From NCBI RefSeq assembly GCF_012222305.1, contig NZ_CP035730.1:2507501-2571500 (forward strand): a DNA stretch of 64,000 bases, written 5' to 3'. The translations under genes and the position numbers were made by a program. Source of the stretch: Sulfolobus sp. S-194 (GTDB lineage Archaea > Thermoproteota > Thermoprotei_A > Sulfolobales > Sulfolobaceae). Position 1 is the stretch's first letter. Each line of letters begins with the position of its first letter. Positions 17,796 to 50,794 of the stretch are shown here, one piece after another. Below the pieces are notes generated by a model. It did no database searches. It saw only the letters and a list, made by a program, of their open reading frames with translations, and was not told the origin of the DNA.

Positions 17796-18835
17796 TTAAG
17801 GTTGCAATTTTTGGTGTAGGAAATGTTGCAAGTGCTCTTTTACAGGGTTTAGAATGGTTAAAGGAAGGAAAAAGTTTGCCGGGCTTATTAGACCTTAATA
17901 TTTCACCTACAGAAATAGAAGTCGTAAAGGCTTTTGATATAGATAAAAGGAAAGTAGGAAAAAAGATATCTGAAGCTATTTTTATGAAACCTAACGTAGT
18001 AAAAAAATATGTAGATGTGAAGTCAGATGTTATCGTCGAAAGAGGGCCAACACTAGATGGATTAGAAGGTTCATTATCTAACATTATCGAAGAATCTGAA
18101 GAGAAGCCAGTGGATGTTGAGAACGAGCTAAAAGATGTTGATGTGTCAATAAGTCTATTACCAGCCGGTACACAGCAAGCCAATGAATATTATGCAAATG
18201 CATCACTTAATGCAAATGTAGCTTTTATTAATGCAACACCTGCAGAAATAATTAATATATATGCTCTTAAATTTGCTGAGAAGAAAATACCATTATTTGG
18301 TGATGATTTGTTAAGCCAAATAGGTGGAACAATTTTACATACTGGTATTATAGAGTTTTTGAAAAGTAGGGGAGTGAAAGTAACAAGAACATATCAAATT
18401 GATATTTCAGGGAATACAGAGACTTATGTTACATTAGAAGAATGGAGAAAAGATTTGAAAAAAGGAATTAAATCAAATTTTATTTCATCTTATGCTGATG
18501 ATTCTCAAGTAATTGCTGGTACTTCAGATTACGTAGAATTTTTAGGAGATAGAAGAGTAAGCTATATGAGTATTGAAGGGATATACTCATTTGGTGTTCC
18601 ATTTAAACTAGATATTTCGTTCAAAACAGAAGACGCTCCTAATGCTGTAGTACCTTTAATAGATTTAATAAGATTAGCTAAAATAGCTAAGGATAATAGA
18701 ATTGGTGGTGCAATACCGCAAATCTGTGGATACTACTTCAAGAGACCACCAAAAATTTATTCTTCTTTAGAAGAAGCTAAACATGAGTTATTCAAATTTG
18801 TTAAGATGATGACTGAACCCCGGCTAGATCGATGA
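17792..18835 (+). CDS. ino1: inositol-1-phosphate synthase
   Basis: 347 residues. NAD-binding [19 protein letters not shown] opens the protein; the family blocks [42 protein letters not shown] and [16 protein letters not shown] follow in order. It converts glucose 6-phosphate to L-myo-inositol 1-phosphate, used for archaetidylinositol lipids. The TTG start overlaps the nuoN stop (TTGA), so the gene is translationally coupled to complex I. Length matches archaeal homologues. A guide RNA candidate overlaps its 3' end. Confidence 0.93.
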
Positions 18836-18857
18836 TATAGCCGTGTGAGAGCTGATT
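18804..18857 (+). ncRNA. possible C/D-box guide sRNA at the ino1 3' end
   Basis: The sequence has a perfect box C ATGATGA (18806-18812) and box D CTGA (18852-18855). Internally a weak D' (CTAG, 18824-18827) and C' (CGATGA, 18830-18835, using the ino1 stop codon) can be placed, leaving guides of 11 and about 16 nt. The stretch is GC-richer than its surroundings. No separate promoter is seen, so it would be processed from the nuo-ino1 transcript. Confidence 0.45.
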
Positions 18858-25245: not shown

Positions 25246-26091
25246 ATGCTTGAGTTAACGTTTTTGCAATATGTTTTGTCAATCATTGCGGGCTTTTTAG
25301 TGGGTTTCAGTCTAGGGCTAATAGGTGGAGGAGGATCAATTTTAGCTATACCACTTTTATTATATTTCGTTGGTTTGGCTTATTTACCTGGTGTTAATAA
25401 AAACTATATTGATCATCTAGTGATAGGCACTACTGCTCTAGCTGTTGGTTTAAATGCATATATAAATGCTTTCATCCATTGGAAAAAAGGAAATGTTAGA
25501 ATCTTAGAAGGTATTTTTTTCACTTTACCAGGAATTTTAGGAACTTACGTCGGTGCCAGAGTTGGGTTAGTAGTTCATGGAGGGCTTTTACTATTTTTGT
25601 TCGGAATTCTGATGATAGTAATAGCTGTTATGGTTTTTAGAGGAAAAGATAGACCAGCTATTTCCAAAACTTATCCTAATGGAGAACCTACTAAAGGGCT
25701 TTTGCAAAGAGTAAAATTGCAAAGAATTATTCCTATAGGATTCTTAGTTGGTTTCGCGTCTGGCTTTTTTGGTATAGGTGGAGGATTTTTAATTGTTCCT
25801 GGTTTACTATTTAGTACTGGAATATGTATGATAAAAGCTGTAGGAACTTCTTTAATCTCAGTAGGAACTTTTGGAGTTACTGGTGCTTTAACTTATGCAT
25901 TAGCTGGTGAAATTGATCCAATAATTAGTATCTTATATCTACTCGGGGGTATTGCAGGTGGATATGTCGGTGCTAAGATTGCATCTAGCATGCCTAGAGG
26001 AATGTTAAGAAAAGTTTTTGCAATAATAATAATTGCGGTAGCTATCTATATAATGTATCAAAATTATTATGCAATCGCGTCAATAATTTAG
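25246..26091 (+). CDS. TauE/SafE-family anion permease
   Basis: 281 residues with eight predicted membrane helices in two repeats, each opening with the family motif GFSLGLIGGGGSILAIPLL and GFASGFFGIGGGFLIVPGLL. Members export sulfite or carry sulfonates and related anions. A sulfur-compound role would suit a sulfur-oxidising archaeon but is inferred from family only. The 3' end overlaps the next convergent gene by 12 bases. Confidence 0.9.
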   Translation: MLELTFLQYVLSIIAGFLVGFSLGLIGGGGSILAIPLLLYFVGLAYLPGVNKNYIDHLVIGTTALAVGLNAYINAFIHWKKGNVRILEGIFFTLPGILGTYVGARVGLVVHGGLLLFLFGILMIVIAVMVFRGKDRPAISKTYPNGEPTKGLLQRVKLQRIIPIGFLVGFASGFFGIGGGFLIVPGLLFSTGICMIKAVGTSLISVGTFGVTGALTYALAGEIDPIISILYLLGGIAGGYVGAKIASSMPRGMLRKVFAIIIIAVAIYIMYQNYYAIASII

Positions 26092-26376
26092 CATTTCCTT
26101 ATATAGTTGATTTATTTTTTCTTCGATTTTTTTCTCTATTAATTGTAGTTTTTCCTTTGTTTTTATATAATCTTCATTTTTGACATATTTTTTAACTTCT
26201 TCTATATCATTTTTCAGCTCTTCGTCTTTTAAATTCCATAAACCAGATAATTCTTTATCTATCCAAGAGAAAATGCTTCTTTCTTTTCTTTCGTTAATGT
26301 GTAATACCACTTTTTCTATTGAAGTTTTTATTAAAATTAAATCTTGTAGCTGAAAATATTTTTTGTTTACAGACAT
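26080..26376 (-). CDS. hypothetical charged coiled-coil protein
   Basis: 98 residues, very rich in Lys and Glu, with a helical heptad-like C-terminal half (DIEEVKKYVKNEDYIKTKEK onward). No recognised family and no membrane segment. It overlaps the TauE gene end by 12 bases and its upstream region is the promoter region of the H/ACA-C/D guide RNA locus on the opposite strand. The protein is plausibly real because the frame is long for its composition, but support is limited. Confidence 0.5.
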   Translation of the reverse strand: MSVNKKYFQLQDLILIKTSIEKVVLHINERKERSIFSWIDKELSGLWNLKDEELKNDIEEVKKYVKNEDYIKTKEKLQLIEKKIEEKINQLYKEMLNY

Positions 26377-26413
26377 TAAAGTTAATATTTACTTCGAAGA
26401 TTAAAATATTAAA

Positions 26414-26482
26414 TACCCCCACTCTCCTCCGGGATCTGAGTCTATGGTTATGCGATGAGGATCCTCAGCCGAGTGGGGGACA
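26414..26482 (+). ncRNA. H/ACA guide sRNA candidate
   Basis: A 9-bp lower stem (26416-26424 with 26471-26479) encloses a pocket (26425-26431 and 26465-26470), a 5-bp upper stem GGATC/GATCC (26432-26436 with 26460-26464) and an apical loop with TGAG and CGATGAG elements fit for a K-turn or K-loop. ACA (26480-26482) follows the lower stem directly. The upper stem lies 15 nt from ACA, inside the 14-16 nt rule for H/ACA pseudouridine guides. TTAATATTTA (26383-26392) is a well-placed promoter for a start near 26414. The segment is strongly GC-rich against its surroundings. Confidence 0.75.
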
Positions 26483-26536
26483 AATGATGATGCCGACATA
26501 GACTGAAGAATGAGGAGGGGTCGATTTACTGATGGA
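26480..26536 (+). ncRNA. C/D-box guide sRNA candidate fused to the H/ACA RNA
   Basis: Directly after the ACA: box C ATGATGA (26484-26490), 12-nt guide TGCCGACATAGA (26491-26502), D' CTGA (26503-26506), C' TGAGGA (26511-26516, one mismatch), 12-nt guide GGGGTCGATTTA (26517-26528) and D CTGA (26529-26532). Its last box shares the A of the ATG of the uracil-DNA glycosylase gene. Two perfect 12-nt guides and three perfect boxes make this one of the strongest candidates. It would be cut from the same transcript as the H/ACA RNA. Confidence 0.78.
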
Positions 26537-27194
26537 TAGTTTAGAAAAAATAAAAGAAGAAGTTATCTCTTGTAAGAAGTGTAAATTATGGCAATTTAGA
26601 ATCAATGCAGTACCAGGTGAGGGAAATCCAAAAGCCGAAATAATGTTTGTGGGAGAAGCACCAGGGGAAAATGAAGATAAAGAGGGAAGACCATTTGTAG
26701 GTGCAGCTGGTAAATTACTTACTCAGCTGATTAAAGAAATTTTAGGATTGGAAAGAGATCAAGTATTTATTACAAATGTAGTGAAATGTAGACCGCCAAA
26801 TAATAGGGATCCAGAGGAAGAGGAGATCATGGCTTGTTCTCCCTATCTAGACAGGCAGATTGATATTATTATGCCAAAAATCATAGTAACTTTAGGGAGG
26901 CATTCTACAAAATATATTTTTAGTAAAATGGGCGAAAATTTTTCGTCTATAACAAAAGTTAGGGGTAAAAGCTATGTATGGAAATATAAGGAAAAAGAGA
27001 TTATAGTTTTTCCAACATATCATCCTGCTGCAGCACTTTATAATCCTAATCTAAGGAAAATTCTTGAGGAAGATTTTAAGAAGATAAAAGAGATAGCGAT
27101 AACCCCAAAAAGGTATACAATTGATTATTTTCTTGGTGGTAAGAATAGATCTTGGGATAAAAGGGAAGAAAGTGATAGTAACAGCAGCAAGTAA
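26532..27194 (+). CDS. family-4 (Fe-S) uracil-DNA glycosylase
   Basis: 220 residues. Four cluster cysteines are present: Cys14, Cys17, Cys86 and Cys102. Motif [17 protein letters not shown] (41-57) is the water-activating loop of family 4 and YHPAA holds the His of motif 2; TLGRHSTKY binds DNA. The enzyme removes uracil from DNA, useful in a hot environment where cytosine deaminates fast. ATG is used; the first codon overlaps the D box of the upstream guide RNA. The C-terminal 35 residues are basic and overlap the SDR gene start. Confidence 0.92.

Positions 27195-50698: not shown

Positions 50699-50794
<96 letters not shown>

Follow-up and report, generated by a model that had tools for sequence, protein, structure and literature searches.

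Upstream of the uracil-DNA glycosylase (UDG) gene in the window, i.e., the whole 64,000-nucleotide stretch of DNA analyzed here, there is very probably a composite gene, in which an H/ACA guide RNA for Ψ35 of tRNA-Tyr and a C/D guide RNA for U2504 and U2479 of 23S rRNA are placed on one transcript, with a junction apparently specific to Sulfolobaceae and with UDG as a neighbor. Sequence comparison indicates that the locus is functional as guide RNAs, and both halves belong to known classes; what is new is their fusion, and the link to the repair gene is incidental. The features of the locus are as follows. The host chromosome (2.79 Mb, of the Sulfolobaceae type) is designated G000, and g1, g2, etc. 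(genera) and f1, etc. are labels of the search tool.

26382–26391 (+): probable TATA element TTAATATTTA, preceded by AAAG; judged from the sequence, it would place the transcription start near 26411–26415
26413–26482 (+): H/ACA guide RNA, one hairpin with pocket, kink-turn loop, and ACA (covariation, fold, and R1 model)
26425–26430 (+): left (5′) pocket guide TCCTCC, which with adjacent stem bases pairs with G37 and the intron of pre-tRNA-Tyr
26437–26459 (+): kink-turn/kink-loop TGA...GAG with tandem G.A pairs, putative L7Ae site (conservation)
26466–26470 (+): right (3′) pocket guide CAGCC, which pairs with GGCUG just 5′ of U35 of tRNA-Tyr
26480–26482 (+): ACA box (read from the sequence and relatives)
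26484–26532 (+): C/D double-guide RNA (boxes and R2 model; Rfam C/D models below threshold)
26492–26499 (+): D′ guide GCCGACAT, which pairs with AUGUCGGC of 23S rRNA, the fifth base from D′ being opposite U2504 (E. coli numbering)
26517–26525 (+): D guide GGGGTCGAT, which pairs with AUCGACCCC of 23S rRNA, the fifth base from D being opposite U2479 (E. coli numbering)
26532–27194 (+): uracil-DNA glycosylase gene (Pfam PF03167, E-value 8e-40), a neighbor probably outside the function of the RNA

If expressed as proposed, one transcript would carry the H/ACA RNA and, directly after it, the C/D RNA. The H/ACA RNA would position U35 of the intron-containing pre-tRNA-Tyr in a Cbf5-Nop10-Gar1-L7Ae enzyme for pseudouridylation, and the D′ and D guides would pair with the peptidyl-transferase ring of 23S rRNA and direct 2′-O-methylation of U2504 and U2479 by fibrillarin-Nop5-L7Ae.

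Structure and conservation of the H/ACA guide RNA

The initial annotation described a hairpin with a pocket, a kink-turn-like loop, and an ACA about 15 nt off the upper stem. These elements could be read directly from the sequence, and the stems covary in 22 genomes. The lower stem consists of nine pairs (CCCCCACTC/GAGTGGGGG, 26416–26424/26471–26479), and the upper stem is GGGATC/GATCCT. The distance from the upper stem (26464/26465) to the ACA (26480) is 14–15 nt, within the 14–16 nt of archaeal H/ACA RNAs. In the 22 genomes, the G and A of the kink-turn were invariant on the 5′ side and kept in at least 90% on the 3′ side, the last CA of the ACA box was invariant, and its first A was nearly invariant. 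The right pocket CAGCC was kept across Sulfolobaceae, except for TAGCC or CAGCA variants. The fold of the hairpin had a z-score of −3.3 against dinucleotide shuffles. For the whole 127-nt composite, the fold was unremarkable (z = −0.7), as expected given the weak folding of C/D RNAs. The H/ACA covariance model (R1), which was built from the aligned hairpins of 22 genomes including the sequence under study, matched 26414–26483 with an E-value of 7e-20.

Inspection of the relatives for loss of boxes and compensatory pairs revealed instead that the boxes were kept and that 46 cells of the H/ACA stems were double-changed among the 22 aligned genomes. Ninety-four percent of the cells were paired, and changes on both sides were found at 10 of the 14 stem pairs. 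The covariation score was 0.478, compared with 0.217 for shuffled alignments, and none of 500 shuffles reached the observed value; the signal was lost once the stem pairs were slid or shuffled. A DNA search detected the locus in 20 of 60 genomes, its own included. In the covariance-model search of relatives that the initial annotation had proposed, the H/ACA RNA was detected in 29 of 31 Sulfolobaceae genomes (E-value of 4e-12 or better) and the C/D RNA (R2 model) in 122 of 197 genomes of the order. Neither RNA was convincingly found in G018, a draft genome of 87% completeness.

Predicted target of the H/ACA guide RNA

Judging from its complementarity, the H/ACA half is evidently the Sulfolobales guide for Ψ35 of tRNA-Tyr, a described family. 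The right pocket CAGCC is complementary to GGCUG, which must be followed in the target by UN, as it is in the GGCUG-UA of tRNA-Tyr. The tRNA-Tyr genes of Sulfolobaceae read GGCUG-UA-G followed by the intron, and the bipartite complementarity of the pocket, which leaves UN unpaired, extends to the intron start. The left pocket and the intron vary by genus yet stay complementary; the pairs were CCCCATC/GATGGGG, CCCTATC/GATAGGG, TTTATC/GATAAA, CAATC/GATTG, CTACC/GGTAG, and CCACC/GGTGG, with cores CCATC/GATGG in g3 and g11, CTATC/GATAG in g5 and g8, and CTACC/GGTAG in g4. For nine genus representatives, the true assignment of pockets to introns was the best (tied) of 362,880 (fraction 5.5e-6; exact permutation p about 6e-6), and for 19 distinct pocket-intron pairs, none of 20,000 permutations reached the true score.

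In the own genus and g7, a good match between the left pocket and the intron requires one or two bulged target bases (GG-[GA]-AGGAGGG), and this predicted pairing is less canonical than that in the other genera. In G029, the second position is mismatched, which was counted against the guide-target match. The D-loop of the tRNA-Tyr genes varies among genomes. As for rRNA as a target of the H/ACA RNA, no pocket match was found by eye, and the candidate was rejected, the tRNA-Tyr match being decisive.

H/ACA guides for Ψ35 of tRNA-Tyr are on record for S. tokodaii, S. acidocaldarius, A. pernix, M. sedula, and S. solfataricus, in the last case with experimental validation, and the stand-alone enzyme aPus7 is deficient where this guide is found (PMC4652768, PMC7991803). 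For the relative from S. solfataricus, binding by Cbf5/Nop10/Gar1/L7Ae and guided pseudouridylation were reported (PMC4652768). In other families of the order, H/ACA homologues stand alone, and those checked fit their own tRNA-Tyr introns; in G068 and G058, the left arm CCCTCAC is complementary to GTGAGGG of the intron. Such stand-alone tRNA-Tyr-guide-like RNAs were observed in several other families, a range wider than the cited one of Sulfolobales and Aeropyrum.

C/D guide RNA and its predicted targets in 23S rRNA

The C/D RNA had been described as near-perfect, and all four boxes are present at the usual spacing: C ATGATGA (26484–26490), D′ CTGA (26503–26506), C′ ATGAGGA (26510–26516), and D CTGA (26529–26532), in agreement with archaeal C/D RNAs (C RUGAUGA and D CUGA, with C′ and D′). 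Each guide forms 8–9 bp with 23S rRNA, the numbering being taken from E. coli rrlB. A single 23S stretch, ATCGACCCC-N16-ATGTCGG, in which N16 is GCGGTTTGCTACATCG, contains both guide complements in the correct order in the own genome and most relatives, and a reversed control pattern of this stretch gave few matches. The C/D guides fit one stretch of the peptidyl-transferase region, and this complementarity predicts 2′-O-methylation of U2504 and U2479. In g5, the pairing of the D′ guide is shifted, and U2504, read by hand, is still at the fifth position. A 16S search in the own genome, with the rRNA locus largely masked, gave no match; the own-genome rRNA was partly masked, and the target assignment covers this 23S stretch.

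No Rfam family matched above its gathering score, the best score being 31.9 bits compared with 45. Rfam C/D models matched with an E-value of 3e-5 in a 351-base search, below their gathering scores. Weak partial matches to the R2 model, restricted to positions 2–39, were observed in many genomes (G009:C1:2012875-2012913 and G050:C6:562-598, for example), which suggests a second C/D RNA with a common D′ guide for the U2504 region. Elsewhere in the window, the known C/D RNA sR18 (Rfam RF01141, 57.9 bits) was located at 18804–18857 (+), and a tRNA missed by ARAGORN was detected by Rfam at 50699–50789 (+); the latter is 91 bases long, which points to an intron or to an extended variable arm.

Junction between the H/ACA and C/D RNAs

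One base separates the ACA (26480–26482) from the C box (26484), and the initial claim that the C/D RNA follows with no gap was nearly exact except for this base. In all 29 Sulfolobaceae genomes with the H/ACA RNA, a match to the C/D model was found directly after it, the C box starting −1 to +6 nt from the ACA in 10 genera. The spacing was 0 or −1 in 10 of the 29 genomes, and the last A of the ACA doubled as the A of the C box in four g5 genomes. Transcription of both classes together, which had been surmised from one genome, is strengthened by this near-zero junction. Since a second promoter would not fit between halves so closely spaced, the H/ACA and C/D RNAs are almost certainly carried on one transcript.

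Outside Sulfolobaceae, the genomes compared by hand had the H/ACA and C/D RNAs at separate loci (497 kb and 402 kb in G058 and 197 kb and 247 kb in G099; likewise separate in G109, G068, G049, and G133). From these comparisons, the junction appears to be specific to Sulfolobaceae. Within this family, the two RNAs are apart in G008 (L206 and L168), where the H/ACA RNA still follows the membrane-protein ORF, its ACA directly adjoining a different ATG, and the C/D RNA still precedes UDG. The split in G008 is possibly a pre-fusion state or a later break; a UDG tree constructed to place this genome gave no resolution at depth. Given this split and G018 without a convincing match, the junction is not obligatory. 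The C/D-UDG neighborhood was also observed in one genome outside the family, G042.

A well-placed promoter had also been proposed. The TATA-like element TTAATATT, 34 nt 5′ of the stem, is plausible but only moderately conserved within the genus. Crude TATA scoring placed a TATA-like element roughly 20–40 nt 5′ of the stem in most relatives, and the element was weak in the own genus. In g2, g4, g5, g8, and g10, the composite is preceded by a membrane-protein-like ORF of about 160–195 codons, which ends in the H/ACA hairpin or just past it. This ORF (L014, L018, L012, L009, and L015) is conserved and matched no Pfam family above the cut-off, and its TGA stop falls within the C box in G012. In the window, a 98-aa ORF at 26080–26376 (−), divergent from the composite and with no Pfam family, replaces the membrane-protein ORF of the other genera.

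Position of the UDG gene

The ATG of UDG (26532–26534) shares its A with the final base of the D box, as the initial annotation had noted. This common base was found in only 3 of 11 genera (g1, g2, and g11). In g6, the ATG lies one base past the D box; g3, g4, g7, and two g5 genomes have the UDG start 26–41 nt beyond the C of this box. UDG is 1.5–4 kb from the composite in g10 and most g5 genomes and divergent in g9, and in G010, it is unlinked, about 1.9 Mb away, with the RNA kept. All 31 Sulfolobaceae genomes encode UDG. A conserved position 5′ of UDG, as expected for a 5′-UTR regulator, was not found, the linkage being lost or changed in g9, g10, G010, and most g5 genomes. A genome-contig search with UDG as the query returned matches to distant bacterial MAGs only.

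These results do not support the suggestion that guide maturation is coupled to UDG translation: the composite is kept whatever the position of UDG, so that the coupling is at most a local consequence. As judged across the genera, the start-codon overlap is a local accident of tight packing in a few of them. Trimming for the 3′ end of the C/D RNA would remove the ATG, and one molecule could thus serve one purpose only. Start or stop codons are known to occur within archaeal C/D RNAs (PMC7994747).

Alternative explanations

We consider it improbable that the RNA doubles as a cis-acting 5′ leader of the UDG mRNA, with L7Ae/Nop5 binding or D-box processing controlling translation. The overlap of the D box and the ATG, together with their close spacing in g6, is consistent with such a role, as are the reports that L7Ae binds a kink-turn in its own leader and represses translation in S. 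acidocaldarius (PMC5539422) and that a 5′-overlapping C/D gene reduced the expression of a downstream reporter (PMC7994747). However, the RNA is kept where UDG is 26–41 nt downstream, kilobases off, divergent, or unlinked, and the SD-like GAGGAGGGG consists of the C′ box and the rRNA guide, a similar sequence being kept without UDG downstream. The membrane-protein ORF ending within or just past the hairpin in five genera could also mean that its coding constraint mimics a guide RNA, but coding cannot explain the double-sided compensatory changes, the co-variation with tRNA-Tyr, and the invariant boxes, and the guide RNA is kept without the upstream ORF in g1, g7, g9, and g11. The co-variation with a tRNA-Tyr gene elsewhere in the genome refutes such a pseudo-structure, to which we assign practically no credence.

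As for the fate of the transcript, there is a slightly better than even chance that the two guides only share a promoter and are then cut into monofunctional RNAs, the gene encoding a compact dicistronic precursor like the tRNA-C/D dicistrons. C/D genes in dicistrons and clusters are frequent among archaea (PMC7994747, PMC3491384), and each RNA works alone, as indicated by the separate loci in other families of the order and in G008. Against such cleavage, the ACA-to-C-box spacing never exceeded 6 nt in the 29 genomes, and in the 10 genomes with a spacing of 0 or −1, the C box begins with the base that follows the ACA or with the last A of the ACA. Canonical tails comprise about 3 nt after the ACA and a few nt before the C box. 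At spacings of 0 or −1, these tails would overlap, so that one precursor could not yield both canonical RNAs, which favors a joined product or competition between the two RNAs. We tentatively raise the possibility that the halves stay joined in Sulfolobaceae as one stable composite RNA, with H/ACA and C/D RNPs on one molecule. Such an RNA would be an archaeal counterpart of eukaryotic scaRNAs and would link the modifications made in the tyrosine anticodon and in the peptidyl-transferase center.

Comparison with known systems

No report of an archaeal H/ACA-C/D composite was found in the accessible papers; this includes the family-wide, almost spacer-free fusion described here. Joint assembly of the two modification RNPs on one RNA is, to our knowledge, established only in eukaryotes, and the composite gene is a natural system in which to test it. 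Its guide RNA co-evolves with a tRNA intron, the alignments of both halves are ready for new RNA families, and three measurable modifications are predicted. The published data set of S. acidocaldarius comprises 2 H/ACA and 62 C/D RNAs (PMC5539422); small-RNA and L7Ae RIP-seq data are available for strain MW001.

The C/D half shares with archaeal C/D box sRNAs (Rfam sR1, sR5, and snoPyro_CD) the C, D′, C′, and D boxes, guide regions of about 12 nt, a double guide for nearby rRNA sites near the peptidyl-transferase center, and the overlap with a flanking gene. It differs from them in scoring under every Rfam gathering score, with no Rfam family yet, and in being joined to an H/ACA RNA. In dicistronic tRNA-C/D precursors (N. 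equitans sRNA8, I. hospitalis, and T. tenax), a stable structured RNA is likewise located directly 5′ of a C/D RNA. In the present locus, however, an H/ACA guide takes the place of the upstream tRNA, and RNase Z 3′ processing is therefore not expected to set the junction.

Among known systems, the tRNA-Tyr Ψ35 guide Sso1 of S. solfataricus, with its S. tokodaii counterpart, reportedly described by Muller et al. (2009, NAR 37:1308), is close to the H/ACA half. The clade, the predicted target U35 of pre-tRNA-Tyr(GUA), the single hairpin, the kink-turn, and the ACA are the same at the level of description. An attached C/D RNA was not found mentioned in the accessible papers. Eukaryotic composite C/D-H/ACA scaRNAs of the U85 type contain both guide classes in one RNA. 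The locus studied here shares both classes with them, a single mature molecule being a candidate only, and differs from them in that the two parts are in tandem, not nested, the predicted targets are tRNA and rRNA, not snRNA, and there is no Cajal body.
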